This document shows positions 5,065-60,649 of a DNA stretch of 64,000 bases, piece by piece. Below the pieces are notes generated by a model, which made no database searches, was not told the origin of the DNA, and saw nothing but the letters and a program-made list of their open reading frames with translations. The position numbers and the translations under genes are program-made. Each line of letters opens with the position of its first letter. The stretch's first letter is position 1. The DNA is from Beroe forskalii (taxonomy: Eukaryota; Ctenophora; Nuda; Beroida; Beroidae): contig WFMF01000311.1 in NCBI GenBank assembly GCA_011033025.1, positions 146,536 to 210,535 of the forward strand, given 5' to 3'.

Positions 5065-5890
5065 TATTGATACTAAAAGGTGGAACCACCCGAAACGACC
5101 CGAAACCACCCGAAACCACCCAACCCACCCGAAACCACCCCCGAAACCACCCAACATAACTCCGAAACCACCCGAAACCACCCGAAACCACCCGAAACCA
5201 CCCGAAACCACCCGAAACCACCCGAAACCATCCGAAACCACCCAACCACGCGAAACCACCCAACCCACCCAACCCAGCCAACGGTGGGTTGGGTGGTTTC
5301 GGGTGATTTCGGGTGGTTTCGGGTCACTCACATTTAAGTAATATTTTGGGTCGTTTCGGGCTGGTTTCGGGCTGGTTTCGGGATGGTTTCGAAATTTTTG
5401 CATAAATTGGGGAACTTAAAACACCGAAACGACCCAAAACGACCCAACCCACCCGAAACCACCCAAAACCACCCGAAACCAAACCACACCCAAAATTCAT
5501 ATTTTGGGTTGGTTCGTTGGGTTGGGTCGTTCCAAACAAAGGTAAAATTTTGGCTCGTTTCAAAATTTTTGCATAAATTGGGGAATTCTAACCACCAAAA
5601 TGACCCAAAACGACCCAACCCACCTGAAACTATCCAAAATCCATATTCTGGGTGGGTTCGGGTGGTTTCAGGTAGTTCAAATTTAAGTAAAATTTTGGTT
5701 CGTTTTGAGCTAGTTTCGAAATTTTTTGCGTAAATTGGGGTATTCAAACCACCTGAAACCAGCCGATTCCACACAAAATATGAATTATGCACTTTGTGCT
5801 GTTTCGTATGGTTTCGAAACAGCCCGAAACAACCCAAAACAACCCACAACAATCCGAAACCACCCAAACGATGAATTTTGGGTTATGGTG
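5065..5890. repeat. GGGTGGTTTC minisatellite with alternating orientation (array 1)
   Basis: A 10-11 bp unit (GGGTGGTTTC, variants GGGTTGGGTGG and GGTTTCGGGCT) is repeated with repeated strand switches: CCACCCGAAA orientation at 5083-5280, the complement at 5281-5330, GGTTTCGGGCT at about 5350-5395, then further switches to 5870. The array edge, GATACTAAAAGGTGGAACC at 5069, reappears inverted at the edge of the array ending near 8165. The G-rich strand has closely spaced GGG runs. Long open frames in all six phases are by-products of the repeat, not genes. Confidence 0.9.
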
Positions 5891-8015: not shown

Positions 8016-8156
8016 CACGTGGGTTGGGTGGTTTCGGGTGGGTTGGGTGGTTTCGGTGGGTTGGGTGGTTTCAGGTGGTTTCGGGTGGTTTCGGGGCTAT
8101 ATTGGGTGGTTTCGGGTGGGTTGGGTGGTTTCGGGTGGTTTCGGGTGGTTCCACCT
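8016..8156 (+). repeat. GGGTGGTTTC minisatellite (array 2)
   Basis: Tandem GGGTGGTTTC and GGGTTGGGTGG units in plus orientation. They end in GGTTCCACCTTTTAGTATC, the exact inverse of the left edge of array 1. The interruption GGGGCTATATTGGGTGG is shared with the end of array 3 and, with changes, with array 1. Confidence 0.9.
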
Positions 8157-8279
8157 TTTAGTATCAACGAAAATGTTGTAACAGAGGTGCTACACTTTTA
8201 GACGATAATCAGATTTTCCAACCTTATCCAGACCAATTGAAAAATTTATTGACAGGCAATAGTATCAACAGTCGAAACT

Positions 8280-8848
8280 GGGTGGTTTCGGGTGGGTTGG
8301 GTGGTTCTGGGAAGGTTGGGTGGTTCCGGGAAGGTTGAGTGGTTTCAGGTGGGTTCGGTGGTTTCGGGTGGATTCGGTGGTTTTGGGTGGTTTCGGGTGT
8401 TTTGGGTGGTTTCGGGTGGGTTGGGTGGTTTCGGGTGGGTTGGGTGGTTTCGGGTGGGTTGGTGGTTTCGGTGGGTTGGGTGGTTTCGGGTGGGTTGGGT
8501 GGTTTCGGGTGGGTTGGGTGGTTTCGGGTGGGTTGGGTGGTTTCTGGTGGGTTGGGTGGTTTCGGGTGGGTTGGGTGGTTTCAGGTGGTTTCGGGTCGTC
8601 CCACATTTTAGTTAAATATCAGCTGGTTTCGGGCTGGTTTCGGGCTGGTTTCGGGCTGGTTTCGTATTTTTTGACAAAATGTTATAGTAAAAACAATGTT
8701 TTTGGGTGGTTTCGGGTGGGTTGGGTGGTTTCGGGTGGGTTGGGTGGTTTCGGGTGGGTTGGGTGGTTTCGGGTGGTTTCAGGTGGTTTCGGGTGGTTTC
8801 AGGTGGTTTCGGGGCTATATTGGGTGGTTTCGGGGTGGTTTGACCGTC
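8280..8848 (+). repeat. GGGTGGTTTC minisatellite (array 3)
   Basis: More than 30 units, mostly plus oriented, in two blocks (8280-8600 and 8700-8848). Between the blocks is a GGTTTCGGGCT sub-array followed by a T-rich spacer, an arrangement also seen near 5350-5410. It ends GGTTTGACCGTCAG; array 1 ends close to GACTGACGGTTT, so the outer borders may also be inverted copies. Confidence 0.9.
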
Positions 8849-9347
8849 AGAACTATTAGATGTACGCCGTACCTCATTTTCATCTGTAAGAAAATAAGAA
8901 TAGACGCAACAAACGGATTGATAACTTAATAAATGTAAAATCTTTAAGGCAGCTGGATTGTGTGACTTGTGTATCTCAAGGCGTGTAAACTAACTTCCTA
9001 GAATTTTTGGTCTGACTCACCCCAGAGGTTCGGAAAGCCTTCTCATTTTGTTCCACAAATATCTTCAAATGCTCTTATTCGCAGAATAAAAGCAATGAAA
9101 ACAACTTAAATGACACCAAAACTATAAAAGTATAAACTTTGTGCACATAAACGTATCTTCGATGTAAATTGTCGGTAGCCGAAGCCCGAAGTGTTTTTGA
9201 TGAATTTTGATATTCAAGATTTCAGCCTTCAAAAACCAGGGTATCGGGTGCCAGAGGGGTGGAAAATCACCCCAAACCTTTCCAAACTTGTATATTCTGT
9301 TTGAAGGCGTCTATACAATGCCGAAATAATGGAAAAATTACGTACAA
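8849..9347. other. AT-rich spacer, nothing recognised
   Basis: No coding exon, RNA gene or tandem repeat is seen between the minisatellite and the poly(T) run at 9348-9372. Confidence 0.4.
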
Positions 9348-9971: not shown

Positions 9972-10300
9972 CTAGCCTGTCTCCCCGCAATTCACAAGTC
10001 TTACCCAATTTTTGAAATTTATCCAGTCTAGGGGCTTTTGATATTGAAACTGCTTACTAATATACCATTTTGAAACCATGTTGATGTAGTTAATAATGGA
10101 GTTATCGTGATTACAAGTAATAAAGAAGTAATTATTCCGATCACGATAGTTGTTGTCTAATTTCATTGTTATAAAAGTGTTCAGTCTGGACTTAAAGGAG
10201 AGAGTATGTGGGCACTGGAGGAAGATATGATCCAGTGTCTCAAGGTTTATTTGACACTGACAGCAGCGGACTCACTTTGTCTATATTCATCTTAAACCTC
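9972..10300 (-). pseudogene. Tx1-clade LINE ORF2, C-terminal fragment
   Basis: The minus frame reads RCCQCQ...ETLDHIFLQCPH, the zinc-knuckle-like motif typical of the C-terminus of L1/Tx1 ORF2, and continues about 65 residues to a stop at 9972. It is cut off upstream by the antisense LINE at about 10262. It is most likely the continuation of the ORF2 remains at 12410-15724. Confidence 0.7.
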
Positions 10301-12408
10301 ATGTATCTACTTGTCAATATTCTCATAAGGAGCTTATATTGGAATTGTATAAGTTTATAGTTGATAGTTGTTTAGCTGACAAGAAGAAAGAACTGTTCTA
10401 CAAATCGAAATTGTCAAGCTATGATAATTCTCAGAAAAGTCTCTACAACTTTGTAAACACATTTCTAGATCAAACTCCTAGCATAACTCTTCCTGATAAA
10501 GACTCCCTTCAAACGGTTGTGAATGACTTTAACACTTTCTTCAGTGAAAAAATTGATAAAATACACCTCAATTTCCCCAAATTGAGCGACGAAAATAGTC
10601 CATCAACAAGTGATTTTCTTCCAGGAACAGTACTCAGTGACTTTGAACCTACTACTGTTGATGAAATTCTTGAAATCATTGAGGAAACTAAGATCAAGAC
10701 ATCAACAAATGACCCATTACCTGCATTTATCATTGAAGACAATCTGCATGATCTACTTCCAGTGATATGTAACATTGTTAATAGCTCCTTATCATGTGGC
10801 AGCATTGATGGTGAGAAAACAGCGCACCTGACACCACTAATCAAACATCCATCCCTGGATAGTTCATGCCCAAAGAACTATAGACCAATATCTAATCTAT
10901 CTTTCATTTCGAAACTCATTGAAAGGATTGTTCTCAGGAGATTAAACAAGCACTTGACAGCAAATAATCTTCATGAACCTCTTCAATCTGCTTACAAAAA
11001 GTTCCACAGCTGTGAAACTCTTTTGATTAGAATTGTCAATGATATCTTAATTGCCAGCGATGAGAATAAAGGCACCATTGTTATGTTATTGGATCTCAGT
11101 GCAGCTTTTGATACTGTGTACCATCCCAAATTGATAAAAGTACTGAAAGAAGAAATTGGAATAGATGGTACAGCTTTAAAATGGTTCAAGAGCTTTATCT
11201 GTGGTCGCTGTCAAAAGGTTAAAGTAGATGGTTATGAATCTGAAGAGATCATTATAAAGTTTGGAGTGCCTCAGGGTTCAGTGTTAGGCCCAGTTCTCTT
11301 CAACATCTATATAAGGTCTATATATCAAACTATCAAAGATGTATCGTTTTTGGTTCATGGGTTTGCTGACGACCACCAAGTATATAAGTCATTCTTGAGA
11401 GAGCAAGAACACAAAATCCTTGTGAAAGAACTGCCATTATGTTTCACTGCCATTGACAAATGGATGGCAAGCCACTATCTTCAGCTTAATCCTGGAAAGA
11501 CTGAGATAATTGTCTTTGGCAAGCCCAAACTTCTATCTGAACTGAAAATTCATGGGACATTCCTAACTCCTTCAACTTGTATTAGATTTGTTTCAACTGC
11601 AAAAAGTTTAGGATTTACTCTGGACTCTAAACTGAGTATGACTTCTCAGATAATGAAATTGAAGAAAAATTGTTTCAGAATGATGAGAAAAATTGCAGCA
11701 ATGAAACGATTCCTCACGAAGAATCAGTGTGAAACTCTTATTCATGCACTTGTTTTCTCCAGTCTTGATTACTGCAATTCTTTGTATTATGGGATCAGTT
11801 CAAGTAACATGAAGCAACTACAGATGATACAAAATCGTGCTTGTAGGATCCTCCTTGGACTCAAGAAAACTGAATCTGTCAATGACCATCTTCAAGAGTT
11901 GCATTGGCTAAGAGTTCAGGAGAGAATCGAATTCAAGGTTATTTTGTTAACATTCAAATGCTTGAATAGTCTTGCTCCATCCTATCTGTCTGATACATTG
12001 CAATACAACAACATCAGTGGAAGTCGCACTCCAACACTTAAACAGACTTCATTTAAATCAGCCGCTGGTAGTCAATCTTTCACTTCTAGTGCGCCTACTC
12101 TTTGGAACAAACTCCCATCTGAACTTAAAGAATGTACTGATATTGGGATTTTTAAGAACAAACTTAAGACCTTTTTATTCAAGAAAAGTTTTAATATCAC
12201 AACCAATTGAAAATTAATTAAATATACATTGGAGAACATTTTGATTATGATGCTTTGAATCAACATGCCTTATGCATGTTTTTTTGAAATTTTGATTTAA
12301 ATGTTTCTTTCCAGCTCTAATAGACAGCTGTGCATAAAGGGTTAGTTTTAACTTCTTTCGTTGCTGTCTTTAAGCCACCATAGTTTATTATTATTATTAT
12401 TATTATTT
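10262..12408 (+). mobile_element. 5'-truncated CR1/L2-type LINE nested in the Tx1 LINE
   Basis: An open frame is readable from about 10262 to 12210, followed by a roughly 190-bp 3' region and a (TTA)n tail ending near 12408. The tail abuts Tx1 sequence on the right, while the left end abuts the Tx1 C-terminal fragment, so this element inserted antisense into the Tx1 copy. A short-repeat tail rather than poly(A) fits CR1/L2-type elements. It lacks the endonuclease region. Confidence 0.8.
10339..12210 (+). CDS. Reverse transcriptase of CR1/L2-type LINE, open frame
   Basis: An uninterrupted frame of about 620 codons. Counting from the first in-frame TTG at 10339, the fingers motif YRPISNLS is at 181-188, the first catalytic aspartate in LDLSAAFDT at 251-259, PQGSVLGP at 311-318 and the catalytic FADD box at 342-345, followed by thumb and C-terminal regions ending near residue 623. 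The frame is already open upstream, so the stated start is only the first listed codon; the true N-terminus, including the endonuclease, is lost by 5' truncation. The lack of stops suggests a fairly recent insertion. It encodes the reverse transcriptase for target-primed integration. The sister copy at 42682-43818 belongs to the same broad group (shared VPQGSVLGPVLFNIYIRSIY). Confidence 0.85.
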   Translation: MELYKFIVDSCLADKKKELFYKSKLSSYDNSQKSLYNFVNTFLDQTPSITLPDKDSLQTVVNDFNTFFSEKIDKIHLNFPKLSDENSPSTSDFLPGTVLSDFEPTTVDEILEIIEETKIKTSTNDPLPAFIIEDNLHDLLPVICNIVNSSLSCGSIDGEKTAHLTPLIKHPSLDSSCPKNYRPISNLSFISKLIERIVLRRLNKHLTANNLHEPLQSAYKKFHSCETLLIRIVNDILIASDENKGTIVMLLDLSAAFDTVYHPKLIKVLKEEIGIDGTALKWFKSFICGRCQKVKVDGYESEEIIIKFGVPQGSVLGPVLFNIYIRSIYQTIKDVSFLVHGFADDHQVYKSFLREQEHKILVKELPLCFTAIDKWMASHYLQLNPGKTEIIVFGKPKLLSELKIHGTFLTPSTCIRFVSTAKSLGFTLDSKLSMTSQIMKLKKNCFRMMRKIAAMKRFLTKNQCETLIHALVFSSLDYCNSLYYGISSSNMKQLQMIQNRACRILLGLKKTESVNDHLQELHWLRVQERIEFKVILLTFKCLNSLAPSYLSDTLQYNNISGSRTPTLKQTSFKSAAGSQSFTSSAPTLWNKLPSELKECTDIGIFKNKLKTFLFKKSFNITTN

Positions 12409-12409
12409 A

Positions 12410-13637
12410 TGTCGGACTTATCAAGGGTTTTACACCAGTCTTTGAGTGGAGTGAGACAATCTGGATTGTGACTAATGGTGATAAGCTCCCTAAAATATTG
12501 TCCCTTTAAAGGGCCTTCACGCACCCTGTTTGTTATCATAGATAGATTCGTCTCCATGTTCAACACTCCTGGTGTATTATGTATCCTAAAGAACTCTTTA
12601 ATCGCCCACTTTATCATGGTGTACTCGCTCTCAGAGATGCTATCAGGTGGTACATTCCACTTAGCGCAGAGTTCACTGAGTGACAAGAGAGTAGGAGGGT
12701 TTTGGAGTTTTAAGAATTGTGAAAGATAGAGAACCCCGCTGCCGATAAGCGTATCATTCCATAGAGGCTTTTTCCACGCCCCAGTGATCACCTTACTACC
12801 CCAAACACAGTGATCAATCCCACTGCCAGATTTACCCGCAGTTTTATTTTTCAACCCGCAAACACAATTCAACATATCAATTAAAAATTTTCCTGTAGGC
12901 TTCGCTCTATAATTTTCAATAGAAATTAATGGATAGTTAGGGTAACGAAGCTGGTTGACTATGAGATCCTTCCATAGATGGCTAAAGGAGTTATCAAAAA
13001 TTTTACCAATTACGGATAATTTAAGACTAAGGATGAAGTCATCAATGTTGAACAGTCCTAGACCCCCCTGACGTGACTGAGTCACCACATCTCTCCTAAT
13101 TTTGTCCCTTTTACTACCCCATAGGAAGTTAAAGATAATGGTATTCAGCTTATTTATGATCGTTGGATGGGGTCTAGGTAATGGAACTATGACATAAACA
13201 ATTTGAGACAGAATAAGTGACTTGATAATTGTGACTTTCCCAAAGAGGGTTAGATCTCTCTTACTCCATATCTCAGCCCAGGACTTCGCCTTTTCGAGTT
13301 TACCGGTGTAGTTAAATTCTACAATTTCCTCCACAGAACTCTTGTTACTAAAGGTAATACCCAGAGCCGTGAAGGAGCTCTTAAGAAACTCATCTCCAAA
13401 CTTCGCCTTTAAATCCCTTAAAAGGTTTAAGTTATACTGCGACTTGCCCAATGGGACGCAACACGTCTTTCCTACATTGGGGTTACAACCCGAGTGGAGC
13501 CCGAAGCTCTTTAGTTCTCGAATAACTGCATCAACTGTATGGAAATTTGCTTGGAGAAATATATCAGTGTCGTCTGCGAACAGGCTTAAGAGAATATCCA
13601 CCCCATCAATCTTAATACCGTTGACAACTTGACATAA
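12410..13637 (-). pseudogene. Tx1-clade LINE ORF2, RT palm to thumb region
   Basis: The minus frame carries LSLFADDTDIFLQ (RT catalytic box) followed by the thumb and a long C-terminal region. It is in the same frame as the segment above 13638, from which it is separated only by a TGA at 13638-13640. At the low-coordinate end the frame runs into a polyasparagine stretch, which is simply the (TTA)n tail of the nested LINE read in antisense. Confidence 0.8.
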
Positions 13638-14715
13638 TCAGAGTTTATTAGAGACGACTTGGGCTACTAAAAGAAACAGGAGGGGTGAGAGGGGGCTTCC
13701 CTGATGAAGTCCTCTCAAAAGATAAATTGGACTACTTAGATGCCCATTGACATTAATTGCATAAGACATACACCCGTGGAACGCAACTTTTATTAGTTTA
13801 ATAAGATACTCACCAATTCCCATTGCCTCCAGTACTTTAAATAGAAAACCGTGCTCAATCGAGTCGAAGGCCTTTTCGAAGTCGACTTGAAGCAGCAGCC
13901 CTTCATCATTGGGATGTTGATTGAAGTGCTCTAGGACTAAGCTCATCAGGATGAGATTGTCTGATGCGCTTTTCCCAGCTTGGAACCCTGCTTGAGCTTT
14001 ATCAATGAGGTGTGGGATAGTTTTGATCAGCCTGTTCTTAATAACATGAGTAAAGATCTTATAATCTACGTTTAGTAGCGTAATAGGTCTCCAGTTCTTA
14101 ATAAAACATAGTTCAGGAGGAGATTTGGGTTTGGGTAAAAGAGTTAGAATACCAATACGTTGCGAGGGCGTCATTGTCCCCCTGGAAATCGACTCAGTAA
14201 ATGAGTTATAAACAATTTCTCTAATTTCGGGCCAAAATTCTTTATAAAATTCCGCTGAGAGTCCATCCCAGCCGGGGGATTTATTACATTTAAGTTTACT
14301 TGTAACGTGATCCAACTCGGTAATAGTAATATCTTCATTAATATCGTCTGAAATAGAAGGATCCAGAACTCTTAAGTTGCTACTATGAATGTAATCATTG
14401 ATCCCTGCAGTGATGGGGTTAGTGGAGGAGTAGAGCTTCTGGTAAAATGATACCACATGATTGGATATCTCCTGCTGATCGAACAGGACATCCCTGCCAG
14501 GAGTGATCAACTTGTTAATAGTTTTCTTCTTACCATGGAATTTCTCCAGCCCAAAGAAATACTTCGTTGATCTCTCACCCTCCTCCATCCACTGCACCCG
14601 GGATCTCGTGATAATTCCCTGAACATCCTGGTTAATGATAGAGTTGAGCTCAATCTCAAGGTCAAATAATTTCTTACGCAAGTTATCGTCTGTAATGAAA
14701 TCTGGAGTATCCTTA
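13638..14715 (-). pseudogene. Tx1-clade LINE ORF2, RT fingers/palm region
   Basis: Motifs in order: WMEEGERSTKYFF, NWRPITLLNVDYKIF, AGFQAGKSASDN, QVDFEKAFDS and LHQGSPLSPLLFLLVA, then an in-frame TGA at 13638. The frame differs from that of the endonuclease segment; the shift lies at about 14711-14730, where the duplicated-looking string CCTTAATACTTTAATACC occurs. Confidence 0.85.
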
Positions 14716-14719
14716 ATAC

Positions 14720-15724
14720 TTTAATACCACCGATCTCCTGTTCAATACAGACCCTCCTGGAACCACGATTTTTCTTCATATTGCTACCATATCTTATAGC
14801 ATAATCCTTCACCCTGAATTTAATGGTGTCCCAGAGACCAGAGTAAGAATCATAACTAGAGTTAGAGATGTCATTTATGAGATTTCTTACACCCTCCTTG
14901 AATACCTCATGCTGTAGTAAAGAGTTATTCAGCTTCCAGTACCCCCTACCATGGCGGATAGTAGACCCCTGGATATTCAGAGAGATGTAGCTATGGTCTG
15001 AACTGTAGCCATGGCTGATGTCAGAGGTACACACTGGGAAATTAATCAGATTAACGTCCACAAGGAAGAAGTCAAGACGTGTAGATGTCTTGTACTGCTT
15101 TAAATTGAAGTGTGTATACACACGATCATCACCTCTAGTCAATCTGAAAACATCGCTAAACCCATAATCATTTATCATATCATTAAGAAATTTCTGTGAC
15201 CTGTGACTGGCGTGACTGGATGCACCTCCCATCTTGTCAAGAGAATTATTTAACACGGCATTCCAGTCACCTGCCAGAATCACGTAGTCATTCCTTGAGC
15301 GACCAAGGGTTTCTAGGAACACATCTTTAAGGAATTCTACATCGTCATTGTTTGGGCTGTAAACATTCACTAGACAATAATTCATTGAGTCATATTCTAT
15401 TTCCAACAAGGTAGCTCTTCCTACGACAATATCAATTTTCTTATTAACTTTGACCTTAATTTTATTTTTTAACAGTACTATAACCCCGGTGGAGTTGGAA
15501 GCTCCATGGTTGAAAAGGACCTCACCTCCCCAGTCCCTCCTCCACGCCGACTCAGAACTAGGCGTGGAGTGGGTCTCCTGTAAGAAGATATCCTCCTCGG
15601 GCTTTGACTTAAGCCAAGTTAATACCGATCTTCTTTTAGATGGACATCCTAGCCCATTGCAGTTAAAAGAACCTATTTTCAAGCCCGGACACGCCCCTGT
15701 GTCTGTGTTACTCCCCCCGTCCAT
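14720..15724 (-). pseudogene. Tx1-clade LINE ORF2, AP endonuclease region
   Basis: Starts at ATG 15724. Endonuclease motifs in order: GSFNCNGLG, LQETHS, LVNVYSPN, LAGDWNAVL, TRLDFFLVD and the terminal SDHS. These match the apurinic/apyrimidinic endonuclease fold of L1/Tx1 elements, which nicks target DNA. The frame continues past the frameshift as a nonsense tail overlapping the RT frame down to 14507. The catalytic residues look intact, but the protein is uncoupled from its RT. Confidence 0.85.
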
Positions 15725-15730
15725 TGTACA

Positions 15731-16540
15731 GCTTATTGTTATATTCGTTGGCCGGATTTATAGTAGAGCAGAGATTCAATATGTCCACAAAACAAAAAAG
15801 GGAAACTAGGCACCCTACAAACCAAAAACAAAACCTAGAAAATGAAGGAGCTGAAAAAAGTGAGTAAGAGAGGAAAGCCAGTGTGAGAAAAAAAAGGACA
15901 TAAAATTGTAGATAGCCGAAAAATTATGCATATAATCCAGGGATAATATCTCAGTAGAAATAGTATAAAATTGTAGAAAATGGTACGTCAAGCTCTGCAC
16001 CATCTACGCACTAATTAATAATTGGTACACAATCATCATGTATACCTAACCATCTAAGGTAATGATGTAAGAGAGTAGTACAAGTACATTAAAAAACAAA
16101 CCAAGGAGATATCCTGTTTTTTTGTTTTCTCCTTTTTCTTCTTTTCTTTCTTCTTTTTAAACTTTTTCCCTTTTTCTTCTTTTTTTTCTTTTTTTTTTCT
16201 TTTTTTTTTCTTTTTTTTTCTTTTGTTCCTTTTTTGTTCCTTTTTTTTCCTTTTTTTTTCCTTTTTTCTTTTTTTAATCCTTTTTTAGGTGTTTTTTTTT
16301 CATTGATGCTCACGGGCTGGGGCCATGAGCTACTCTGTCTCACACCCCCTTGGCAGCTGAGGCTAAGTAAGACCTTAAGACAGTCTCTCACCGTAGCATG
16401 GCGTTTCTAAATGAGAGGAGATCCTCCAGTGTCGAACTGTCGACAAACTGAGAACTGTTAGCTACGCTCCCTTATAGTTATGCCGTATACACAGGCTATG
16501 CAGCGTGAGGTTATATAAATAATAATAAATTAAAGTTTTT
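15731..16540. repeat. LINE upstream sequence and pyrimidine (CTTTTT)n low-complexity tract
   Basis: 16118-16290 is almost pure C/T with a (CTTTTTT)n pattern; read on the minus strand it encodes a meaningless lysine-rich frame. On the minus strand it follows a short segment ending CATGGCCCCAGCCCG, a string also present in the Tx1 3' UTR at about 9587-9601, so it may be the A-rich tail of another retroposed fragment. No gene is seen. Confidence 0.5.
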
Positions 16541-16704
16541 CTTACACGCTTAGACATTGTCAAATAGATATCAGAGAGGGAAATATTCTAGCCATTTAAG
16601 CGTGACAACCTTCGAAAGCTAAAAACACAGATCACAAGAGTGTCACAGTTCCCACATATGTGCAAATTAACTCTGAAAAACTAAAACATAACAAAATCTA
16701 ACTT

Positions 16705-17850
16705 TTATGAGCAAATTCCATTGAATGCAATTTCAAAATAAAAAGTTTTCAGACACTTTTTAAATTCTGAAATCTCAGGGATGCTTCTAATTGAATAAGG
16801 TAAACTATTCCAAATTCTCGGGCCATTATATTTAAATGCAGCTTCAGTTCTAGAAAAATTAGGCTTAGGAGGAATTTTCAGAAGGAAAAAGTCATTGTCT
16901 AATCTAACACTGACTCTTTTTGTGTCCCGTACTGATATAAGATCACTCAAATATTTAGGAGCAAGATTGTTAACACATTTAAATACTAAAAGAGCTGTCT
17001 TAAATTTCACTCTATAAAGAACAGGCAGAAAATGAAGTTCTTTCAAGTAAGGGCTTATTGATGTCCATTTTCTTTTACCAGTTAGCTTGCATATGAACCT
17101 GACTGCGTTATTCTGAATCTTTTGAAGCTTTTGGAGATTTTTCTCAGTGATGATAGCATAAGAGGAATTACAATAGTCAATCATGGAAAGAATATGAGCA
17201 TGAACTAACTGAACCTTTAGGTCATGTGTAAGTCTTGCTCCTATACGCTTGATATTCCTTAAGTTCAGGTAACAAATTTGCGAAATATGGTTGATTTGAT
17301 CTTCCATACTCAGCCTGTGGTCAAAATAAAATCCAAGGTTCTTAGTAGCTAACACAGGGGAAACAGATACCTTTGAAGCAGATTCACTCAAATCAAGGGA
17401 TTCAATTGGACTAACATAATACCCAATATCTATGAATTCTGTCTTATCATCATTGAGCTTCAGAAAATTCCTAGTCATCCAGGCTTTGACCTCACCAAAA
17501 CATTGCTTAATACCAGTGAGGTCAGGTGAGGGACTGTTTACATCAAAAGAAAAATAAATCTGAGTGTCATCTGCATAGAGATGAACTGATAGACCATATT
17601 TAGAGATAATTTCTTCTAGGTCTTTTGTATACAAAATGAACAGTAAGGGTCCTAGAATGGATCCTTGTGGCACCCCTATTTCAAGAGGACATTCAGTTGA
17701 GAAGATTCCATTGATCATAACCTTAAACTTTCTATTTGACAAATATGATCTAATCCAATTATAAACGATTCCAGAAATACCATACTTGAGTTGCAGCTTA
17801 CCAAGGAGAAGTTTGTGATTGATCGTATCAAATGCTGCACTCAAATCTAG
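16705..17850 (-). pseudogene. LINE reverse transcriptase, palm to C-terminus
   Basis: Carries the first aspartate motif (LDLSAAFDTINH), GVPQGSILGPLLFILY and LYADDTQIYFS, then a thumb and C-terminal region ending LKTFYFEIAF. The preceding RT portion is in another frame; a one-base shift near 17845-17860 within the LLDLSAAFD codons separates them. It is otherwise free of stops. Confidence 0.85.
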
Positions 17851-18579
17851 AAGTAAAGGACAACATTTTCTTTTTTGTCCAACATAAGAAGAATATCATT
17901 CTGAATCTTGAGCACAGCAGTTTCACAGCTATGGAATCTTCTGTAAGCAGATTGGAAATTACTAAAGAGCATGTTATCCTCGATGTGTTTCACAAGCTGG
18001 TTGTGCACAACTTTTTCCAGAAGTTTTGAGATGTAAGGCAAGTTGCTGATGGGCCTATAGTTGTTCAAAACATCATGATCTAGATTGGCTTTTTTAAGAC
18101 TTGGTCTTACTACAGCTGTTTTGAAGGATTCAGGGAAATATCCAGTCTTGAGGGATTCATTCACAATGTAGTGTAGAACTCTGATCAGCTCTGGTAGGCA
18201 TTGCTTAAAGAGCCACACAGGGATGGCATCTAGTGTACAAAACTTTTCAGGAAGATTTTTGGCTAATTCAAGAACTTCTTCAGCTGAGACTTCCTGGAAT
18301 GCAGAAAAGCGAACTGATGCAGCACACGCTCCAGAGTCAGTGGTATTTTGAGCAGAGTTGAGTCCATCAATATTTTCTTCAATGTTTGAGTAGATTGACT
18401 TAACCTTGTTATCAAAGAAAGAACTAAAGTTTTCAGCAATTGTTATATCATCCTTTGCATTAGGCAATTTTCCAGTACCAACTTCACGATCAAGGAGCTG
18501 ATTTATGACCTTATATGTTCCTTTGGTATCACCCTTTACAACAGATAGTCTTTTGTCAAAATATGTATTCCTTCTCTGA
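17847..18579 (-). pseudogene. LINE reverse transcriptase, N-terminal part
   Basis: Contains GDTKGTYKVINQLL, a linker, PSLKKANLDHDVLNNYRPIS and HSCETAVLKIQND, typical of the region just before the RT palm in CR1/L2/Jockey-type elements. The open frame extends upstream to 18617, but those first 13 or so residues come from the signal-peptide exon of the host gene read out of frame, so they are not LINE sequence. Confidence 0.8.
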
Positions 18580-18630
18580 TCACAGTAAAAGTGATCGTTC
18601 CAACGGTAGTAGCACACACATAGTAAACAT
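18580..18630 (-). pseudogene. Truncated third copy of the two-domain secreted-protein gene (exon 1 start)
   Basis: From ATG at 18630 the sequence matches the first 50 or so bases of the genes starting at 30529 and 59606, including TTTACTATGTGTGTGC. One T is missing in the CTACTACTCG stretch, shifting the frame, and the match stops at the LINE junction near 18580. Nothing of the rest of the gene is seen beyond the LINE. Confidence 0.8.
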
Positions 18631-19461
18631 CTTGGTGCTCTTCAGTGTTCCTTAAACTTACGGGATGGGGTTAGTGATAGAAGGATTTATTAGATCACAT
18701 TGAATTGATAACATGAAGTACTGGCGAGTTATTTGTTATGGTTCAGCAGTAATACTATCTTCCTTACAAGACACATTTCAAAGGCATGAAATTTTGAGAT
18801 TTTTCGAAAAAATTCCCATATTTTTGTGCCTACAAAATCTCAATAGGTATGAAATCTTCATCATTTGTTAACAAGTAATTTTTCAAGTAATTTTCAAGTA
18901 ATTTTCAAATATAATTTGTAACAAATGCATTGTTATTCAAATCATACACACTCAGAAGTATGTTAATGGGTGTTGAGTAGGTGATGCGATGATAAGTTGA
19001 GCTTGATTCAGATGTTAATTGAGCCTAGGATATCAAGGTGATTAGTGGTTCATAGGAAGGCGTGAGCAGTGAGTGACAAAGATGAAGTGCCTGAGTCACT
19101 GTGCTGAAACAGAGAAAGGGGCGAAGCAAGGGGGAGAGCAATAGTGAGAAAGGGGGTTGGGGTGGGGTGGGTTGGGGTAAGGACTAGGGGATAGAACACC
19201 TGAAATCAAACAGAGGTCAACGTAGTGTGGCGGGAAGTGAGGCGGGATGGTGAAGAGGGTGCTGAGAAGCAAGGGGCGAAGAGCAAGCAGAATATTCGAA
19301 AAAATGTACTCAAATTTCGTAACCCCAAAATTTCGATCCCTATTAGTATTGCTCCATACAGTAAATTTATCTCGTAAGACACTCGGTTTTACTTAATATT
19401 CAGATAAGGAAACTAGCACTTGAATTCGGGCATCAAACTGTAGAATAACTGTAACATTAAA
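18631..19461 (-). repeat. Upstream region of the secreted-protein gene, third copy
   Basis: 18631-18872 and 19286-19461 match the upstream regions at 30100-30528 (plus) and 59607-60020 (minus). An unrelated block at about 18873-19285, partly G-rich (GGGGTTGGGGTGGGGTGG), interrupts it in this copy only. The shared homology stops at 19461. Confidence 0.8.
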
Positions 19462-24745: not shown

Positions 24746-24779
24746 AAAGAATTTTATTAGCTTCAAGGCATAATACACA

Positions 24780-26975
24780 TCTTTCAACTCGAAGCATACC
24801 CATATCAGCTCTTAGCATACCCCTCTCATTCTCGCAGCATACCACTATCAACCCATAACAAACCCCAATCAACCCACCACACACCCCATCAACCCATAAC
24901 ACACCCCTATCAACTCATAACACACCGCTATCAACTCATAACACACCCCTATCAACTCACAACATTCCCCTCTCAACTCATAAAACACCCCTATCAACTC
25001 ACAACATACCCCTATCAACTCATAACACACCCCTATCAACCCATTACACACCGCTTCCAACTCAAAACATACCCCAATCAACTCATAACACACCCCCACC
25101 AAGCCATCGACTCTTAGCTATTACTACTAAACGGGGGATGGATCCACAAGAGATCCAAACAGAGTCTCCAGCACGGAACCTCCCCCTAGGAGGTCCCTGT
25201 TGCCAGGGCTACTGTGGATGGCAACAAGTCCTTACCCCCGTATGGATTGATTGGGGTATGTTATGGGTTAAGAGGGGCATGTTACGAGTTGATAGGGGTG
25301 TGCTAGGAGTTGATAGGTGTATGTTATGAGTCATAACATACACCTATCAACACATAGCACACCCATATCAACTCGTAACATACACCTCTTAACTCATAAC
25401 ATACCCCAAATCAATCGAAAACATACCCCTATCCACTCTTAGCATACCTGTCTCAGCTCATAACATACCCCATCACCCCAATCAACTCATAACATACCCT
25501 AATCAACTCGTAAGAAACCCCTGTCGACTCATGACACACCTCTATATCAACTCATAAAACTATAACATATCATAATCAACTCATAACATACCCCTATCAA
25601 CTCGTAGCATATCCCTCTCAACTTGTAGCAACTAGCATACACTCTCAACTCAGAACATACCTCTTTCGACGGTTAACATACCCCAATAAACACACAACAC
25701 ATCCCTGTCAACTCATAACATACCCCAATCCACTCATTACCCAGCCCTATCACTCTATCAGTAATACTGTTAGGGTTGAGTTATGAGTTGAGAGGGGTAT
25801 GCTATGAGTTGATTGGAGTATTTCATGTGATGATATAAGGGGTATGCTACGAGTTGAGAGGGGTGTGTTATGAGTTGATAGGGGTGTGTTACGAGTTGAG
25901 AGGGGTGTGTTACGAGTTGAGAGGGGTGTGTTACGAGTTGAGAGGGGTGTGTTATGAGTTGAGAGGGGTGTGTTACGAGTTGAGAGGGGTGTGTTACGAG
26001 TTGAGAGGGGTGTGTTATAAGTTGAGAAGGGTGACTCATGAGTGGAGAGGGGTTGGTTATGAGTAGATTGGGATAAGGTATAAGTTGATAGGGGACAGGG
26101 GACAGGGGTATGTTACAAGTCGAAAGGGGTGTGGTATGAGATTATTGGGGCATGGTTTGCGTTTAGAGGGGTATGCTACGAGTTGATTGGGGTGTGCAAT
26201 GACTTGATAGGGGTGTGTTATGACGTGATTAGGGTGTTTTATGATTAAATAGGGGCATGTTAAGAGTTGACAACGGTACGCTATTACTTGATAGTGGTAT
26301 GCTATGAGTTGAAAGGGGTGTGTAATGAGTTGATTGGGGTTTGTTATGAGTTGATAGGGGTATGTTATGAAATGATAGAGGTGTGTTTTGAGTTGATAGG
26401 GGTGTTTAAGAGTTGAGAGGGGAATGTCATGAGTTGATAGGGGTATGCCATGAGATGACAGGGGCGTGTTATGAGTTAATAGGGGTAATGGTATGTTATG
26501 AGTTGATAGGGATATGCTAAGAGTTGATAGGGGTATGCTATGATTTCATTGGGGCGTGTTATGAGTTGACTTGATTAGGGTATGTAATGCGTTGATTGGG
26601 GTATGTTATTGTTATGAGTTGATAGCGGCGTTGGGTGTGTAATGAGTTGATAGGGGTGTTTTATGAGTTGAGAGGGGAATGTTGTGAGTTGATAGGGGTG
26701 TGTTATGAGTTGATAGGGGTGTGTTATGAGTTGATAGGGGTGTTTTAGGAGTTGATTGGGGTATGCTTTGAGTTGAGAGGGGTGCGTTATGAGTTGATAG
26801 GGGTGTGTTGTGAGTTGATAGGGGTGTGTTATGAGTTGATAGGGGTGTGTAATGAGTTGATAGGGTGTGTACTGTGTGGTGAGTTGATTGGGGTTTGTTA
26901 TGAGTTGATAGTGGTATGCAACGAGAATGAGAGGGGTATGCTAAGAGCTGATATGGGTATATATTATGCCTTGTA
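24780..26975. repeat. 21-bp satellite GTTGATAGGGGTGTGTTATGA with strand switches
   Basis: Over 90 units. Orientation is minus at 24780-25110, plus at 25240-25330, minus at 25331-25770 and plus at 25771-26975. A near-perfect long palindrome is centred at 25330. Because the unit is 21 bp it yields seven-residue repeat frames (for example GVCYELI), which are not genes. Locally the units vary between GAGAGG and GATAGG. Confidence 0.95.
25123..25190 (+). repeat. Dispersed ~65-bp repeat, copy 1
   Basis: TACTACTAAACGGGGGATGG and the bases after it recur nearly identically at 31833-31900, inside the same intron. No function recognised. Here it interrupts the 21-bp satellite. Confidence 0.8.
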
Positions 26976-26989
26976 GCTAATAAAAAAGC

Positions 26990-27440
26990 CCCCTGCCAGA
27001 TTAGAACAACGCCACACTAGGTATTGAATTCGCCACACTATATAAATAATCGCATTGTTAAGATTATATTCGCCACAGGCCACACCCTATGCGTTAATTT
27101 TCTAAGAATGCGTGTAAAGTGATGGGTAATATTCGCCACACTAGCATTATATTCGCCAAAGTGGTCGCGAGTTTATGAATACACGCAATGCTAAGGAAAT
27201 ATTCGCCTGTTATATAAACAATATTCGTAGACTATTTTTCGCTGTGCTATGAAAATATTCGCCTACTAGGTAACACATTTATTATTACAGAATATTTCGC
27301 CGTGTTAGGAAAGTATTCGCCTATTGGGTAACACATTCATTCTTAGAGAATATTTCGCCGTGTTTGGAAAATATTCGCCAGTTGGATATCAAATTTCTTC
27401 TTGGAAAACATTTCGCCGTCTTAATAAAATATTCGCCGTA
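26990..27440. repeat. ATATTCGCC repeat region
   Basis: About 15 copies of (A)TATTCGCC or TTTCGCCGTGTT. In 27210-27440 they form roughly 62-bp tandem units (AATATTTCGCCGTGTT ... AAATATTCGCCTATTGGGTA); upstream they are more scattered. Confidence 0.85.
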
Positions 27441-29529: not shown

Positions 29530-29640
29530 AGCAAACAAACACAGAATCTCTGGTTGCAACGCCCTCTCAAGCCCTGCCTCTAGATCACCAAACCCCCTCA
29601 ATGGCTAAATTCCCTAATAACAAACAGCCCCAAATGGCTG
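29530..29640 (-). repeat. Single-copy ancestor-like unit of the 85-bp repeat
   Basis: One unit (complement of TAGAGGCAGGGCTTGAGAGG with flanks) that occurs nearly 30 times in tandem at 60650-63110. Just beyond, at 29755-29850, are two units of a 51-bp repeat that has five units at 60290-60530. Confidence 0.9.
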
Positions 29641-29989
29641 AGCTCACGCTCGTGAAGTGAAAAGCTCCCAGTGTGTAAGCTAGCTGCGTCCCCTTTCAAT
29701 GCTGGGGCTAAGAGTTTTTCTCCTTGCTTTGTCAAACTATTCCACATAATAATCAAAATAAAACATAATAATGTGTGGGGTGAAAAATAAGTCTCCCTAA
29801 TAATCAAAATAAAACATAATAATGTGTGGGGTAAGAAATAAGTCTCCCTACTCTCACGTGTTTCCTTTGTCAGCAAATGAAAAGAAAACATCGATTCAGA
29901 TTCCACGCTTTCACCCATAAAAGCAAACAACGCCCATATTTTGAAACATTCAAAACTCCCCTCACAATGTTGGCTCCAAGACTTTAATT

Positions 29990-30528
29990 CAGTAACTTTC
30001 TTTGCTGAATATTATTATTACTTTTTAAAACCTCCACACCACATGCACACGTGTGTATAGCTTGAGCTTATTGCTAGTTATTATTATCAATTCGTTTGTC
30101 ACAGTTTGCTTAATGTTACAGTTATTCTACAGTTAGATGCCCGAATTCAAGTGCTAGTTTCCTTATCTGAATATTAAGTAAAACCGAGTGTCTTACGAGA
30201 TAAATTTACTGTATGGGGCAATACTAATAGCGATCGAAATTTTGGGGTTACGAAATTTGAGTACATTTTTTCGAATATTACGTCATGTTAACGAATGATG
30301 AAGATTTCATACCTATTGGGATTTTGTAGGCACAAAAATAGGGGAATTTTTTCGAATAATCTCAAAATTTCATGCCTTTGAAATGTGTCTCGTAAGAAAG
30401 ATAGTATTACTGCTTTACCATAACAAATAACTCGCCAGTACTTCATGTTATCAATTCAATGTGATCTAATAAATCCTTCTATCACTAACCCCATCCCGTA
30501 AGTTTAAGGAACACTGAAGAGCACCAAG
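29990..30528 (+). promoter_or_regulatory. Conserved upstream region of the secreted-protein gene
   Basis: Nearly identical to 59607-60130 (inverted) and, in two pieces, to 18631-19461. No clear TATA box is seen. The sequence just before the ATG (AACACTGAAGAGCACCAAG) is kept in all three copies and is the likely 5' UTR. Confidence 0.5.
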
Positions 30529-30681
30529 ATGTTTACTATGTGTGTGCTACTACTCGTTGGAACGATCACTTTTACTGTGACCTCGGGGCAGGACACCATC
30601 GAATGTCTCAAAGCAGCGCACAATGGACTCAACTTCGTGTGGGATGATAGCCTGGATGCGATTCCTGACTCCCGCGATCGG
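30529..30681 (+). CDS. Two-domain cysteine-containing secreted protein, exon 1
   Basis: ATG at 30529 in CAAGATG context; 51 codons. Residues 1-20 form a signal peptide (MFTMCVLLLVGTITFTVTSG). The mature part starts QDTIECLKAAHNGLNFVWDD. The exon ends GATCGG/GTGAGG, phase 0, joining to the acceptor at 30884. The gene lies antisense in intron 8 of the TECPR1-like gene. Confidence 0.8.
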
Positions 30682-30883
30682 GTGAGGAATTGGTCAGGTT
30701 ATATAACCTCACCTAACTCTAGGCTAACCCTAGCCTTAATTATATTTCCTCAGGCATGACCAAATAAGTGCAAATTCGGTCTTTTTTTAAATTTTAACGG
30801 AGAAATTCAAATAACGTTGGAAATCACTTTGGACATAGACACATCAATCCTCCTGACATATAACCCATTGGATGGTATTCCAG

Positions 30884-31384
30884 GCCATCTTGACGCTCAT
30901 TATCCGTGGAACCTGTGAAGACTACATGCGGCAACCCCTTGCACTGATTCACACCCACGGTACAAACCCCCATGTGAAGTGTTTGTTGCACGAGGACGTG
31001 GCAGAGAGCATGATCACATGCAGATATCAGTTCCAATACAAGGAGGGGACCTGGAACTATGACGATGCTTCTGATCATAGGTCAGATGACGAGATATTGC
31101 AGTGCCTGATTAATGGCCAATCTGCGCTGGGCATCCCTTGGGACTTTGAATTGGCTGTCAAATCCGACATTGCAATGTCCTCTAGCTCCCAAATGGAAGT
31201 GCTTCTGTCACTAGCAGTCCTGGGCTCGTGTGAGAAGTATCTGACACAACCACTCCTCCAACCTGTAGCCCAGCTGGGCAAAGAGGGCACCCAGACAATG
31301 ATGTGTGCCCCTATGGACAAGGCCAAGGAGGATATGCTCTTCTGCGTCTACAAGTTCCAATACAAGGGAGAACACCTCAGCTAA
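30884..31384 (+). CDS. Two-domain cysteine-containing secreted protein, exon 2
   Basis: Acceptor GTATTCCAG; 166 codons plus stop, total product 217 residues. Two homologous domains with four cysteines each: C26, C62, C84, C97 and C125, C167, C192, C205 (spacings 36-22-13 and 42-25-13). Shared strings are IRGTCEDYMRQPL / VLGSCEKYLTQPL and ITCRYQFQYKEG / LFCVYKFQYKGE. There is no transmembrane segment after the signal peptide, so secretion is likely. I do not recognise the family. The paralog at 58666-59606 is about 95% identical at the protein level and intact up to an altered C-terminus, which implies selection or recent duplication. Confidence 0.8.
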   Translation, partial: AILTLIIRGTCEDYMRQPLALIHTHGTNPHVKCLLHEDVAESMITCRYQFQYKEGTWNYDDASDHRSDDEILQCLINGQSALGIPWDFELAVKSDIAMSSSSQMEVLLSLAVLGSCEKYLTQPLLQPVAQLGKEGTQTMMCAPMDKAKEDMLFCVYKFQYKGEHLS

Positions 31385-42404: not shown

Positions 42405-43885
42405 AAGTAAATAATAAATAAATAAATATTGGCAATTATAAAGCACTTCTTTTAAGCAAGCTTTCACACAGAAGTGCTTGAACCATATCAGTCAAAATAG
42501 ATTAAATCAAAAGTTGAAAATCCTAAAAAATCTAAAAGGGGAAATCTCAAGATGAAAAATCCTTAAAATCTAAAGGGGAAACATCAATAAATTACTTATC
42601 CCAATACATATTACCATAAAAGCGAAAGGTTATAAGATATTTTAAAGCCATAAAGTTTATCGTATATTTATGATTTTAAATCTAAGCTATCAGCTTTTTA
42701 ATTTCAAAGTCAGAAGCATTGAACAAATGAGTTTTGAGTAAAGATTTAAATGATTCAACATCACTGGCTGACACTACATGATTTGGGAGTCTATTCATTA
42801 ACTTAGGGCCTATGACACTGAAGCTCCTACTTCCATACAATGATCGGAAAGTGGGTACAATGAGTTTAATGGAATGACCGTGATGAGAGTAAACAAACAG
42901 TTCTTGCAGATATTGAGGTGACTGTCCAATGATTGACTTGTAAGATAAAAGTGCCAGCTTGAAAATCACTCGTTTCTTAATGCTCAGCCAGTGCAGGTCA
43001 TTCAGATCATTTTCCATATGGTCATGTTTGTATTTGCCCATAACGGTTTTGGCACACGCATTCTGAATCATTTGAAGTTGTGAGGTTAGCTTCTCTGAGA
43101 TACCAAAATATAGACCATTACAATAGTCGAGACATGAAACAACCAGAGAGTTAACAATTATCTTGAGTTGGTCTTTTGTCAAGAGAAAGCGGATTTTATT
43201 GATATTCCGTATTGTCCTAAAGCACTTTTTCTTCAGTTCTGTGACTTGTTTATTGAGAGTAAGCCCAGAGTCAAAGAATACACCAAGGTTCCTGAAATTG
43301 GACACAAACCTTATTGTCATACCAGATGGAAAATTAAGTCCACCAATTCCAATTTCATTCAGAGTCCTTCTGTTACCCAGTATTGCAATTTGGGTCTTGG
43401 ATCCATTTAACTGTAGATAATAATGATCCATCCAACACTTAACCTTTTCGAAACACCTTTGAAGTTCATAAACAAGTACAATACTCTGTAAGGATGACTT
43501 GAAAGATAGCATAATCTGATGATCATCTGCATAGCCCTCAATGGAAAATCCTAATTTCTGAACAAAACTGTAAATTGACCTTATGTATATGTTGAAGAGT
43601 ACAGGTCCAAGCACTGATCCCTGTGGAACACCAAATTTAATGATGATCTCTGCTGAAACTGTATCTCCAACTCTAACTCTTTGTGTCCTCCCAGTAAGAA
43701 AACTTTGGAACCAACACAGCACTGTGCCTCGTAAGCCTATTTCATGCTTCAGTATATTTAGAAGCAGTCCATGATCCACTGTATCAAATGCTGCTGATAA
43801 GTCAAGCATCATCATCACTGTGCAACTCTTTTCATCACTTGCAACCAGTAAATCATTCCAAATCCTAATAAGCAGAGTATCAACA
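42405..43885 (-). mobile_element. 5'-truncated CR1/L2-type LINE
   Basis: Minus-strand element with RT body, 3' UTR, a 9-bp perfect stem AAGCACTTC (42441-42449) / GAAGTGCTT (42471-42479) and an (ATTT)n tail at 42408-42430. The 5' truncation point near 43885 falls inside the SINE-like repeat (AAGAATAAATCCTTTAAAAC follows it), so it inserted into that repeat. Confidence 0.85.
42682..43880 (-). pseudogene. LINE reverse transcriptase, truncated but open
   Basis: The frame begins within ...LLIRIWNDLLVASDE and runs through LDLSAAFDTVDHG, FGVPQGSVLGPVLFNIY, the catalytic EGYADDHQI and a complete C-terminus ending at 42682. No stops or shifts, but the N-terminal RT and endonuclease are missing. Closest in the window to 10339-12210. 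Confidence 0.85.
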
Positions 43886-44610
43886 ATTAAAGAATAAATC
43901 CTTTAAAACACATCAATCTGCAAAACTTTGGGATAAAAATTTAGCCATCTTTGTACAGTCATGCCACAGAACTTTCCAACAGCTCTTTCCTAAGTCTTTG
44001 CCAGGATCCAAACGATATTCCTTCATCAGAGATCCAGACCAATCCAAACATTAAACAAATCATTATTAGAGCAAAAATGATATGGGGCCATGTTGTGGGG
44101 TTGAATGCATTTGATGGGTGCCCAATGCTCCCCTAACCACTAGATGGTGTTTTAGTTTCATAAGCTTCAAGTTCACTCAGGAATTTAAGTTCATCATTAG
44201 TCTTTGTCCAGTGTAAGGAATTCAAAGCTTCATCCTGTCAAACTAGATTGAAAGATCAAGACTGGACTTGAACTTTGACACAATTTCTTGAGAAATCATT
44301 AGTCTTTGTTCAGTGTAAGGAATTCAAAGCTTCATCCTGTCAAACTAGATTGAAAGATCAACTCTGGACTTGAACTTTGACACAATTTCTTGAGAAATTC
44401 TATGTAAGAACAGCCAAATCCAAATGAGTCACACCCAAATGAGTGGTGTGCAGGCAACATCAGTCCAATACCTACCTCAGATTTTGAGATGTTTAAATTG
44501 TGAGAGCTCTTATGAGGTAGGCCCCCAGCAGTCACCCTATGTTACCAGGGTATAGCACTGTCATTTGCAGTGACCACCTGAAACAGATTAGAGGTCTTTA
44601 ACACAGCCAT
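43886..44610 (-). repeat. SINE-like dispersed repeat, copy 2, with internal 107-bp duplication
   Basis: Continues the repeat interrupted by the LINE at 43885. About 107 bp (CATTAGTCTTTG ... TTTCTTGAGAAAT) at 44189-44298 is duplicated in tandem to 44400. The end from 44380 to 44605 matches 37790-38045. Confidence 0.7.
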
Positions 44611-45120
44611 CAAGAAATTAACTAATTAAGAAGCACACTTGGTGAAGAGCAGTTGATGGATCCTGGGGTTTTGTAATCCTGGGGACTGGGGTTTTGTAAC
44701 CCACACTATACTATGGTTAAACACCATTAATTATTCTATTTCTATTTACACCATGAATTATTTGCTTTTGAATTGAATTATTATTTTGTCCAACAGCAAT
44801 TTGCTCTGTTGCTTTTGTAAAATTGTGCTCTTAATCAATAGTGAATTTATGATTGATTTTGGAAGGTACTGACATTGTTTGATTATTAAAATTAATTTAA
44901 CAATTGAACTCTGCTATAGACATCAATTGCTGCCCAACCTACATATTATATGCATGCCCCAGATCATGAATTTCAAAATCGAAAACAGCAACATTTAAAA
45001 AAGCAACTCTACAGCTTCCACTAATGTTATATTTTTTTAATTATCTTGCTTAATTTCTTTGTCATACTCATATTATACCATGTATTAAATTCTAACTTCC
45101 TTCTCATTATTATTTGAGTT

Positions 45121-45844
45121 ATGAAGCTCTTGGTGATTATGGCATCTCTGGTATTTCTTGTCAGATGTGAGAAGACTTTTTTTGAATCTCCTAACACTTA
45201 CATTCAATATCGACATTGGGTTGTGAGTGAAAGAGGAATTTTAATGTTCTATTTCCGGACATTCAAACCAAATGCTCTATTGCTTTATACTGATGGTGGT
45301 TCAGGTTCTAATGACTTCTTGAAACTACAGCTTATAAATGAAAAGTTGGTGGTACACACCAATTTTGGTAGTGGAACTGAAACATTTGAGCTTGGAGAAA
45401 AGCTTTCCAATGGTGTTTTTCACTCTGTTCAAATCAACATTGAGGCTGGTCTGTTGACTGTATATTTAGATCAAACATTCAGCAAGGAGAAACAATTTGA
45501 CAACTCTGCAGCTGACAATATCCTTCAAATACAAACTGCTGTTTTCATTGGTGGAGTTAACAAATTCTACACAACTGAAACAGTTGAGAAAGATTTAGCC
45601 TTAGAACCAAGATTCACTGGATGCATTAAGGGACTCAAATTTACAAGAACTGATGGAGAAACTTTTGGGATCCCAAATGTTGAGAATGAAGAGGGTACTA
45701 AAGATGGCTGTGGAGAAACTTCCTGTGATAGCCTGTCCTTTACGGATTCCTGCAAGAATGGTGGGCGGTGTGAAGCACAAATTGATGGGAGTTACAAGTG
45801 CAACTGTGAAAGAACTGGATATTCTGGAGAAAAGTGCACTACAG
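45121..45844 (+). CDS. Neurexin-like protein, first coding exon (signal peptide, LNS/laminin-G, EGF)
   Basis: ATG at 45121; 241 codons plus one base to donor ACAG/GTATGT, phase 1, the usual phase between LNS and EGF modules. Residues 1-16 are a signal peptide (MKLLVIMASLVFLVRC). About 20-197 is a laminin-G/LNS domain (LLLYTDGGSGSNDFLKLQL, VFHSVQINIEAG, AVFIGGV, RFTGCIKGLKF, closing Cys near GCGE). About 199-241 is an EGF domain with six cysteines (SCKNGGRC ... CNCERTGYSGEKC). Signal-LNS-EGF is the start of alpha-neurexins, synaptic adhesion receptors; a CNTNAP- or agrin-like relative is the alternative. Later exons were not recognised in the following 19 kb. Beyond the donor the frame reads a few residues into a stop at 45891. 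Confidence 0.8.
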
Positions 45845-45984
45845 GTATGTTTTGTCTGGTGTTTTGTCAGGTGTTTTTCTGTTATTTGTAAATTTCTTGT
45901 TATTACCTTACATGAATAGAAAACCCACTGTCTATTGGATACATAAAGACACAATTTCAATGGAAAACTTTTACATAAATACAA

Positions 45985-58665: not shown

Positions 58666-59244
58666 TCAAAAATTGGGGGCTCTGCCCCTAAAAACCCCCC
58701 GCCAGGGGTTCTGCCCCCTTCTGAAAATTCTGGCTACGCCCCTGTTGCTGAGTTTTTCTCCCTTGTATTGGAACTTGTAAACACAGAAGAGCATATCCTC
58801 CTTGGCCTTGTCCATAGGGGCACACATCATTGTCTGGGTGCCCTCCTTGCCCAGCTGGGCTACGGGTTGGCGGAGTGGTTGTGTCAGATACTTCTCACAG
58901 GAGCCCAGAACTGCTAGTGACAGAAGCACTTCCATTTGGGAGCTGGAGGACATTGCAATGTCGGATTTGACAGCCAATTCAAAGTCCCAAGGGATGCCCA
59001 GCGCAGATTGGCCATTAATCAGGCACTGCAATATCTCGTCATCTGACCTATCATCAGAAGCATCGTCATAGTTCCAGGTCCCCTCCTTGTATTGGAACTG
59101 ATATCTGCAGGTTATCATGTTCTCTGCCACGTCCTCATGCAGCTGGCACTTCACATGGGGGTTTGTACCGTGGGTGTGGATCAGTGCAAGGGGTTGCCGC
59201 ATGAAGTCCTCACAGCTTCCACGTATAATGAGCGTCAAGATGGC
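58666..59244 (-). CDS. Second copy of the two-domain secreted protein, exon 2
   Basis: Acceptor GCTATTCCAG at 59245-59254, then the same two four-cysteine domains as 30884-31384, with all cysteines kept (SCEDF, VKCQL, ITCRY, ILQCL, SCEKY, MMCAP, LFCVY). The usual end GEHLS-stop is replaced: after GEKLSN a mobile sequence starting CAGGGGCGTAGCCAG reads through for about 27 residues (RGVARIFRRGQNP...) to a stop at 58666. The total product would be 241 residues. The added tail lies next to low-quality sequence. Confidence 0.75.
   Translation of the reverse strand, partial: AILTLIIRGSCEDFMRQPLALIHTHGTNPHVKCQLHEDVAENMITCRYQFQYKEGTWNYDDASDDRSDDEILQCLINGQSALGIPWDFELAVKSDIAMSSSSQMEVLLSLAVLGSCEKYLTQPLRQPVAQLGKEGTQTMMCAPMDKAKEDMLFCVYKFQYKGEKLSNRGVARIFRRGQNPWRGVFRGRAPNF
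58668..58745 (-). mobile_element. Fragment of a DNA transposon or MITE (CAGGGGCGTAGCC terminus)
   Basis: CAGGGGCGTAGCCAGAATTT followed by GGGGGCAGAACCCC in complement at about 58738-58690. Termini beginning CAGGGGCG are known from hAT-type elements. It marks where the duplicated gene stops matching the copy at 31384. The class is inference. Confidence 0.5.
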
Positions 59245-59459
59245 CTGGAATAGCATCCAATGGGTTATACGTCAGGTGGATTAATATGTCTATGTCAGGA
59301 GGGTTGAACGATTCCAAAGTGATTTCCAACGTTATTTGAATTTCTCCGTTAAAATTTAAAAAAAGACCGAATTTGCACTAATTTGGTCATGCCTGAGGAA
59401 ATATAATTAAGGCTAGGGTTAGCCTAGAGTTAGGTTATATAACCTGACCAATCCCTCAC

Positions 59460-59606
59460 CCGATCGAGGGAGTCAGGAACCGCATCCAGGCTATCATCCC
59501 ACACGATGTTGAGTCCATTGTGCGCTGCTTTGAGACATTCGATGGTGTCCTGCCCCGAGGTCACAGTAAAAGTGATAACGAGTAGCAGCACTCGCATAGT
59601 AAACAT
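59460..59606 (-). CDS. Second copy of the two-domain secreted protein, exon 1
   Basis: ATG at 59604-59606; 49 codons to donor GATCGG/GTGAGG, phase 0. The signal peptide MFTMRVLLLVITFTVTSG is two residues shorter than in the copy at 30529. The mature start QDTIECLKAAHNGLN is identical. The frame is intact. Confidence 0.8.
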
Positions 59607-60530: not shown

Positions 60531-60649
60531 TGGAATAGTTTGACAAAGCAAGGAGAAAAACTCTTTGCCCCAGCATTGAAAGGGGACGCAGCTAGCTTAC
60601 ACACTGGGAGCTTTTCACTTCACGAGCGTGAGCTCAGCCATTTGGGGGT

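Follow-up and report, generated by a model that had tools for sequence, protein, structure and literature searches.

The DNA at positions 30529 to 31384 of this Beroe forskalii window (the whole 64,000-nucleotide stretch that was analysed, bases 146536 to 210535 of the 210,535-base contig C372, so that the window ends where the contig ends) raises the question of whether it carries a real gene and, if so, to which family its product belongs and what that product might do. Read as two exons, the locus (copy 1) encodes 217 residues, which bears out the coordinates and length given in an earlier, sequence-only reading. It looks like a real gene for a small, probably secreted protein with two related four-cysteine domains (Table 1). 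The cysteines are residues 26-62-84-97 in domain 1 and 125-167-192-205 in domain 2, yielding spacings of 36-22-13 and 42-25-13, and the intron interrupts domain 1 only, leaving domain 2 in one piece; both features had been described in the same terms before. The intron was also considered as a candidate mobile intron-like element and rejected, as a genome search returned the copy 1 and copy 2 places only.

Table 1. Positions, within the window, of the family members and of the repeat upstream of copy 1.
Feature	Position	Strand	Description
Copy 1, exon 1	30529..30681	+	Signal-like N terminus and beginning of domain 1; 51 codons
Copy 1, intron	30682..30883	+	GT-AG, phase 0, 202 nt
Copy 1, exon 2	30884..31384	+	Remainder of domain 1, linker, domain 2, stop codon
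Dispersed repeat, ~205 nt, MITE-like	30192..30396	.	In upstream region of copy 1
Copy 2, exon 1	59460..59606	-	Two codons of the signal-like stretch missing
Copy 2, intron	59245..59459	-	
Copy 2, exon 2	58666..59244	-	Homology to copy 1 to about 58747, then 26 residues of unrelated DNA and a later stop
Fragment (third copy)	18580..18873	-	Upstream region and start of exon 1 (~50 nt, ATG at 18630) with a broken frame; abuts a reverse-transcriptase frame
Fragment, further upstream segment	19291..19460	-	Same truncated copy; ~417 nt from the other piece

Three intact proteins of the family were compared for hydropathy, namely, those of copy 1 and of two genes found elsewhere in the genome (C716 and C606). 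The best 19-residue mean at the N terminus is 1.88, 1.25, and 1.52, respectively, and the best value beyond the N terminus is 1.27, 0.68, and 0.68; the N-terminal value of C716 does not exceed the internal maximum of copy 1. The hydrophobic N terminus behind the predicted signal peptide is thus confirmed at the level of hydropathy. If cleavage is assumed to occur before QD, the mature copy 1 protein would be approximately 22.2 kDa. Two N-glycosylation sequons are present in the C606 protein, and none occurs in copy 1 or C716.

The two domains of copy 1 are homologous, far above chance. Their local alignment score is 110, a value reached by 0/2000 shuffles (mean, 23.2; standard deviation, 4.0; maximum, 53), and a tblastn search with domain 1 recovers domain 2 with E values of 1.3e-8 in copy 1 and 3.2e-9 in copy 2. 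The duplicated four-cysteine domain had been proposed as the family trait, and at least five further loci of the family lie elsewhere in the genome. Exactly four cysteines occupy the same four columns in 10/10 complete domains, a set in which some copies are nearly identical and some come from broken genes, and from which three incomplete domains were excluded. The 10-row alignment has six invariant columns, four non-cysteine (Leu, Trp, Gly, and Pro). The domain spans approximately 82 to 94 amino acids, and most members carry the marks CLKxxH, a Trp, GxCxx[YF][ML]x[QL]P, VxC, and CxY. Chou-Fasman propensities averaged over the domains weakly suggest a helix near the conserved Trp and strands near C3 and C4; they also weakly favor a strand in the segment before C2, against an initial guess of a helix.

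The genome (216 Mb in 1134 contigs) was searched at the protein level, and a consensus domain and three of the members, used as queries, all recovered the same set. In total, at least seven loci and one fragment were found, a set that the search tool gives as a lower bound, with at least five of the loci located outside the window on three other contigs. At an E value of up to 10, the consensus-domain search returned only two further matches, both at chance level (E values of 1.8 and 2.3). The C716 gene (L011 4850-5802) is intact and encodes 206 amino acids, with an intron between the domains. Three tandem genes are present at C606, with frames that need no intron; one, at 28.0 to 28.6 kb, is intact (207 amino acids) and two have frame breaks, which are one-base length differences, so that assembly error is possible. 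At C182, the match is limited to the first half of domain 1, after which the frame ends. The copy 1, C716, and C606 proteins share 29 to 41% identity and keep all eight domain cysteines. Both window genes (copies 1 and 2), the C716 gene, and the intact C606 gene have a signal-like start followed by two domains of exactly four aligned cysteines.

Three copies, two of them intact, had been counted in the window at first sight, a count that needs revision: one is fully intact (copy 1), one has an altered C terminus (copy 2), and one is a fragment. Copy 2, on the minus strand (59606-58666; 241 amino acids), has retained the complete coding region. Its homology with copy 1 extends as far as the final Leu-Ser codons; no stop is present at that point, yielding a 26-residue read-on into unrelated DNA. 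The frame break in the approximately 50 coding nucleotides of the fragment is a one-base deletion. The family had also been described as expanding; the number of loci bears this out only in part, and decay is as visible as gain.

The sequence surroundings of the copies include several repeats. The approximately 205-nt repeat upstream of copy 1 is present upstream of copy 2 as well, where imperfect inverted ends were detected (59726-59960), and in the fragment, where it is interrupted by approximately 417 nt. At least 37 matches to the repeat region, among 41 listed, lie on other contigs at 72 to 78% identity, a lower bound given that 40/116 candidates were scored. A satellite of approximately 80 to 85 bp occupies 60636-63022, beside copy 2 and near the contig end, where a single unit gave about 30 blast matches; a unit is also found upstream of copy 1, at about 29534-29626. 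Elsewhere in the window are low-complexity tandem arrays with open frames on both strands (4954-8989 and 24761-27016), a laminin G and EGF open frame whose start is signal-like (45118-45891), and several reverse-transcriptase frames (10261-18641 and 42682-43902), one beside an endonuclease/exonuclease-type frame, which are probably non-LTR retroelements. The reverse-transcriptase elements and the laminin G/EGF frame fit animal DNA. No Rfam model matched the window at gathering scores.

The order of events within the family was approached through a tree of the domains, in which one branch separates all first domains from all second domains (support, 93/96; present in 91% of bootstrap trees), a branch that the tool does not star, with a warning that long second-domain branches meet. 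Since first and second domains lie on opposite sides of the tree, the two-domain form is probably ancestral, and the internal duplication probably predates the split of the loci. The intron position differs among the paralogues, being in domain 1 in C372, between the domains in C716, and absent in C606 (L009 8012-8632); intron gains or losses within this small family would account for the pattern.

Our preferred reading is that the family consists of secreted, disulfide-locked two-domain binding or recognition proteins that would evolve by birth and death. The members would form a small family of soluble secreted proteins of approximately 21 to 22 kDa, in which the four cysteines of each domain would form two disulfides inside that domain. 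The simplest pairing would be C1-C2 and C3-C4, where C3-C4 would clamp a beta hairpin at the C-terminal end, and the result would be two rigid modules held by a linker. Such a protein could serve in extracellular two-headed binding or recognition, either in defence or at the cell surface or matrix, which is the least certain step, while copies of the family would be gained and lost. No functional site was recognised in the family sequences, and the suggestion in the sequence-only reading of a possible defence, adhesive, or mucosal role found no direct support. Copy gain combined with decay fits recognition or defence and, equally, dispensable orphans, and for that reason we assign the preferred reading a probability of about 0.4.

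Whether the copies are under selection bears on the dispensable-orphan side of that balance. Copies 1 and 2 differ by 18 synonymous changes over 140.7 sites and 12 nonsynonymous changes over 504.3 sites (Fisher p of 3.5e-6, on truncated site counts), giving a dN/dS of 0.17 (0.62 in exon 1 and 0.12 in exon 2). The dN/dS near 1 that had been named in advance as a mark against the family is therefore absent in this pair, a result weakened by the low divergence of noncoding DNA: gaps excluded, 7/195 aligned bases differ in the intron (3.6%; the copy 2 slice is offset by one or two bases at its ends) and 10/422 differ in the upstream region (2.4%). Because these values are close to dN (0.024), the case for purifying selection on the window pair rests on the high dS. 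The synonymous divergence of the pair (12.8% of sites; 30682-31381 versus 59459-58747) is several times that of the intron and upstream region; gene conversion or uneven mutation could lie behind it.

It is somewhat unlikely, in our estimate, that these genes form an orphan family confined to one lineage, weakly constrained, mostly decaying, and without an important role. Such a history would explain the one fragment, the copy without a stop, the two frame-broken genes, and the partial locus, along with the resemblance of the window-pair dN to intron and upstream divergence. It would also agree with the three C606 genes, pieces of which were compared with each other in four pairings; the dN/dS values of 0.63, 0.67, 0.74, and 0.87 are nearer to 1 than in the window pair and are a sign of fast or relaxed evolution. 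However, the C606 breaks could be assembly errors, and copy 1, C716, and one C606 gene have remained open over their full length with eight domain cysteines each despite their divergence. The dN/dS among these three loci also speaks against general decay (copy 1/C716, 0.33; C716/C606, 0.41; copy 1/C606, 0.47), though dS of 1.5 to 1.8 nears saturation.

A structural or adhesive function, in which the two disulfide-locked modules would serve as a component from which mucus or extracellular matrix is built, is likewise on the unlikely side. The signal-like start, the two cysteine-rich domains, and the calculated pI values of the assumed mature forms (4.8 for copy 1, 4.1 for C716, and 5.3 for C606) are consistent with such a product, but the protein is small, the repeats stop at two, no low-complexity segment is evident in the sequences as read, and the three proteins diverge rapidly (29 to 41% identity).

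Copy 2 itself might be an assembly artefact, e.g., a haplotype copy that was attached in reverse close to the end of the contig, as its start lies 4.4 kb from that end and adjoins the satellite array. We regard this as very unlikely, considering that copies 1 and 2 are only 93.7% identical across the approximately 1.63 kb they share (about 29747 to 31381 on the copy 1 side), that their introns differ by indels, that the 3′ end and C terminus of copy 2 are unlike those of copy 1, and that a third, fragmentary copy is present on the same contig.

To our preferred reading of a recognition protein, searches for known relatives added no named family. Against Pfam at E values of up to 10, where the HMMER filters discard most matches above about 0.1, copy 1 and the C606 protein gave no match, the C716 protein gave one chance-level match (E value of 0.18), and the 10 single domains gave one as well (E value of 0.16). 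No NCBIfam match was obtained for copy 1 or C716 at E values of up to 1. In the PDB, the best sequence match had an E value of 1.5, and the best profile match had an E value of 0.034 over 32 residues (the CAP protein 5wee), followed by a viral transcription factor (0.15) and chance-level matches to antibody light chains (0.47 to 0.74). Phage records yielded no relatives by tblastn at E values of up to 0.1. One profile-derived pattern matched six stretches in IMG/VR, and six copy 1 peptide patterns, which find close relatives only, matched six stretches in GTDB species genomes; none was confirmed in either set. In the accessible portions of a sponge-directed literature on secreted or lineage-restricted proteins, nothing was recognised as this two-domain family, and five peptide strings from the family did not occur in the literature searched. 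Across the libraries searched, relatives were found in one genome only. The family thus appears to match no known one in Pfam, NCBIfam, PDB, phage, IMG/VR, or GTDB, and the earlier statement that it could not be assigned stands for these libraries, where all matches were at chance level.

That the proteins are divergent versions of an already described fold, for instance a shortened form of CAP/SCP (PF00188), is highly improbable. The C-terminal hairpin is weakly and locally like 5wee in the profile search, and the N-terminal segment loosely resembles CAP proteins that this genome encodes. Both observations are outweighed by an HH comparison with 8/15 CAP matches of the genome (probability, 0.6%; score, 14.2, within the range of up to 30 column-shuffled controls, which reached 17.1 and then 13.5) and by Pfam, where neither the 10 domains nor any of the three full-length proteins matched CAP at E values of up to 10. 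CAP/SCP was therefore rejected as a distant relative. The CAP/SCP superfamily fold is an alpha-beta-alpha sandwich, and its Pfam model has 117 positions, whereas the orphan domain has approximately 88 amino acids. The CAP proteins of this genome include open frames with two CAP matches each (L040/L042 on C211 and L041/L046 on C294).

Small secreted cysteine-stabilised animal proteins that are restricted to one lineage are a kind rather than a family. The orphan proteins resemble that kind in their signal-like start, the even number of cysteines per domain, the internal domain duplication, and the gain and loss of copies, but show no sequence relation to any named protein of that kind. It is unlikely, although conceivable, that they represent an undescribed extracellular domain that became fixed in tandem duplicate in one lineage of early-branching animals and recognises microbes or self. 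If the domain is truly undescribed, the secreted repertoire of an early-branching animal would gain an extra small disulfide-locked module, one whose domain duplication is probably ancestral and whose introns are placed differently among its loci. As it stands, this is one more orphan secreted family, and its value lies in the domain alignment and cysteine pattern, which can be searched for in other animals.
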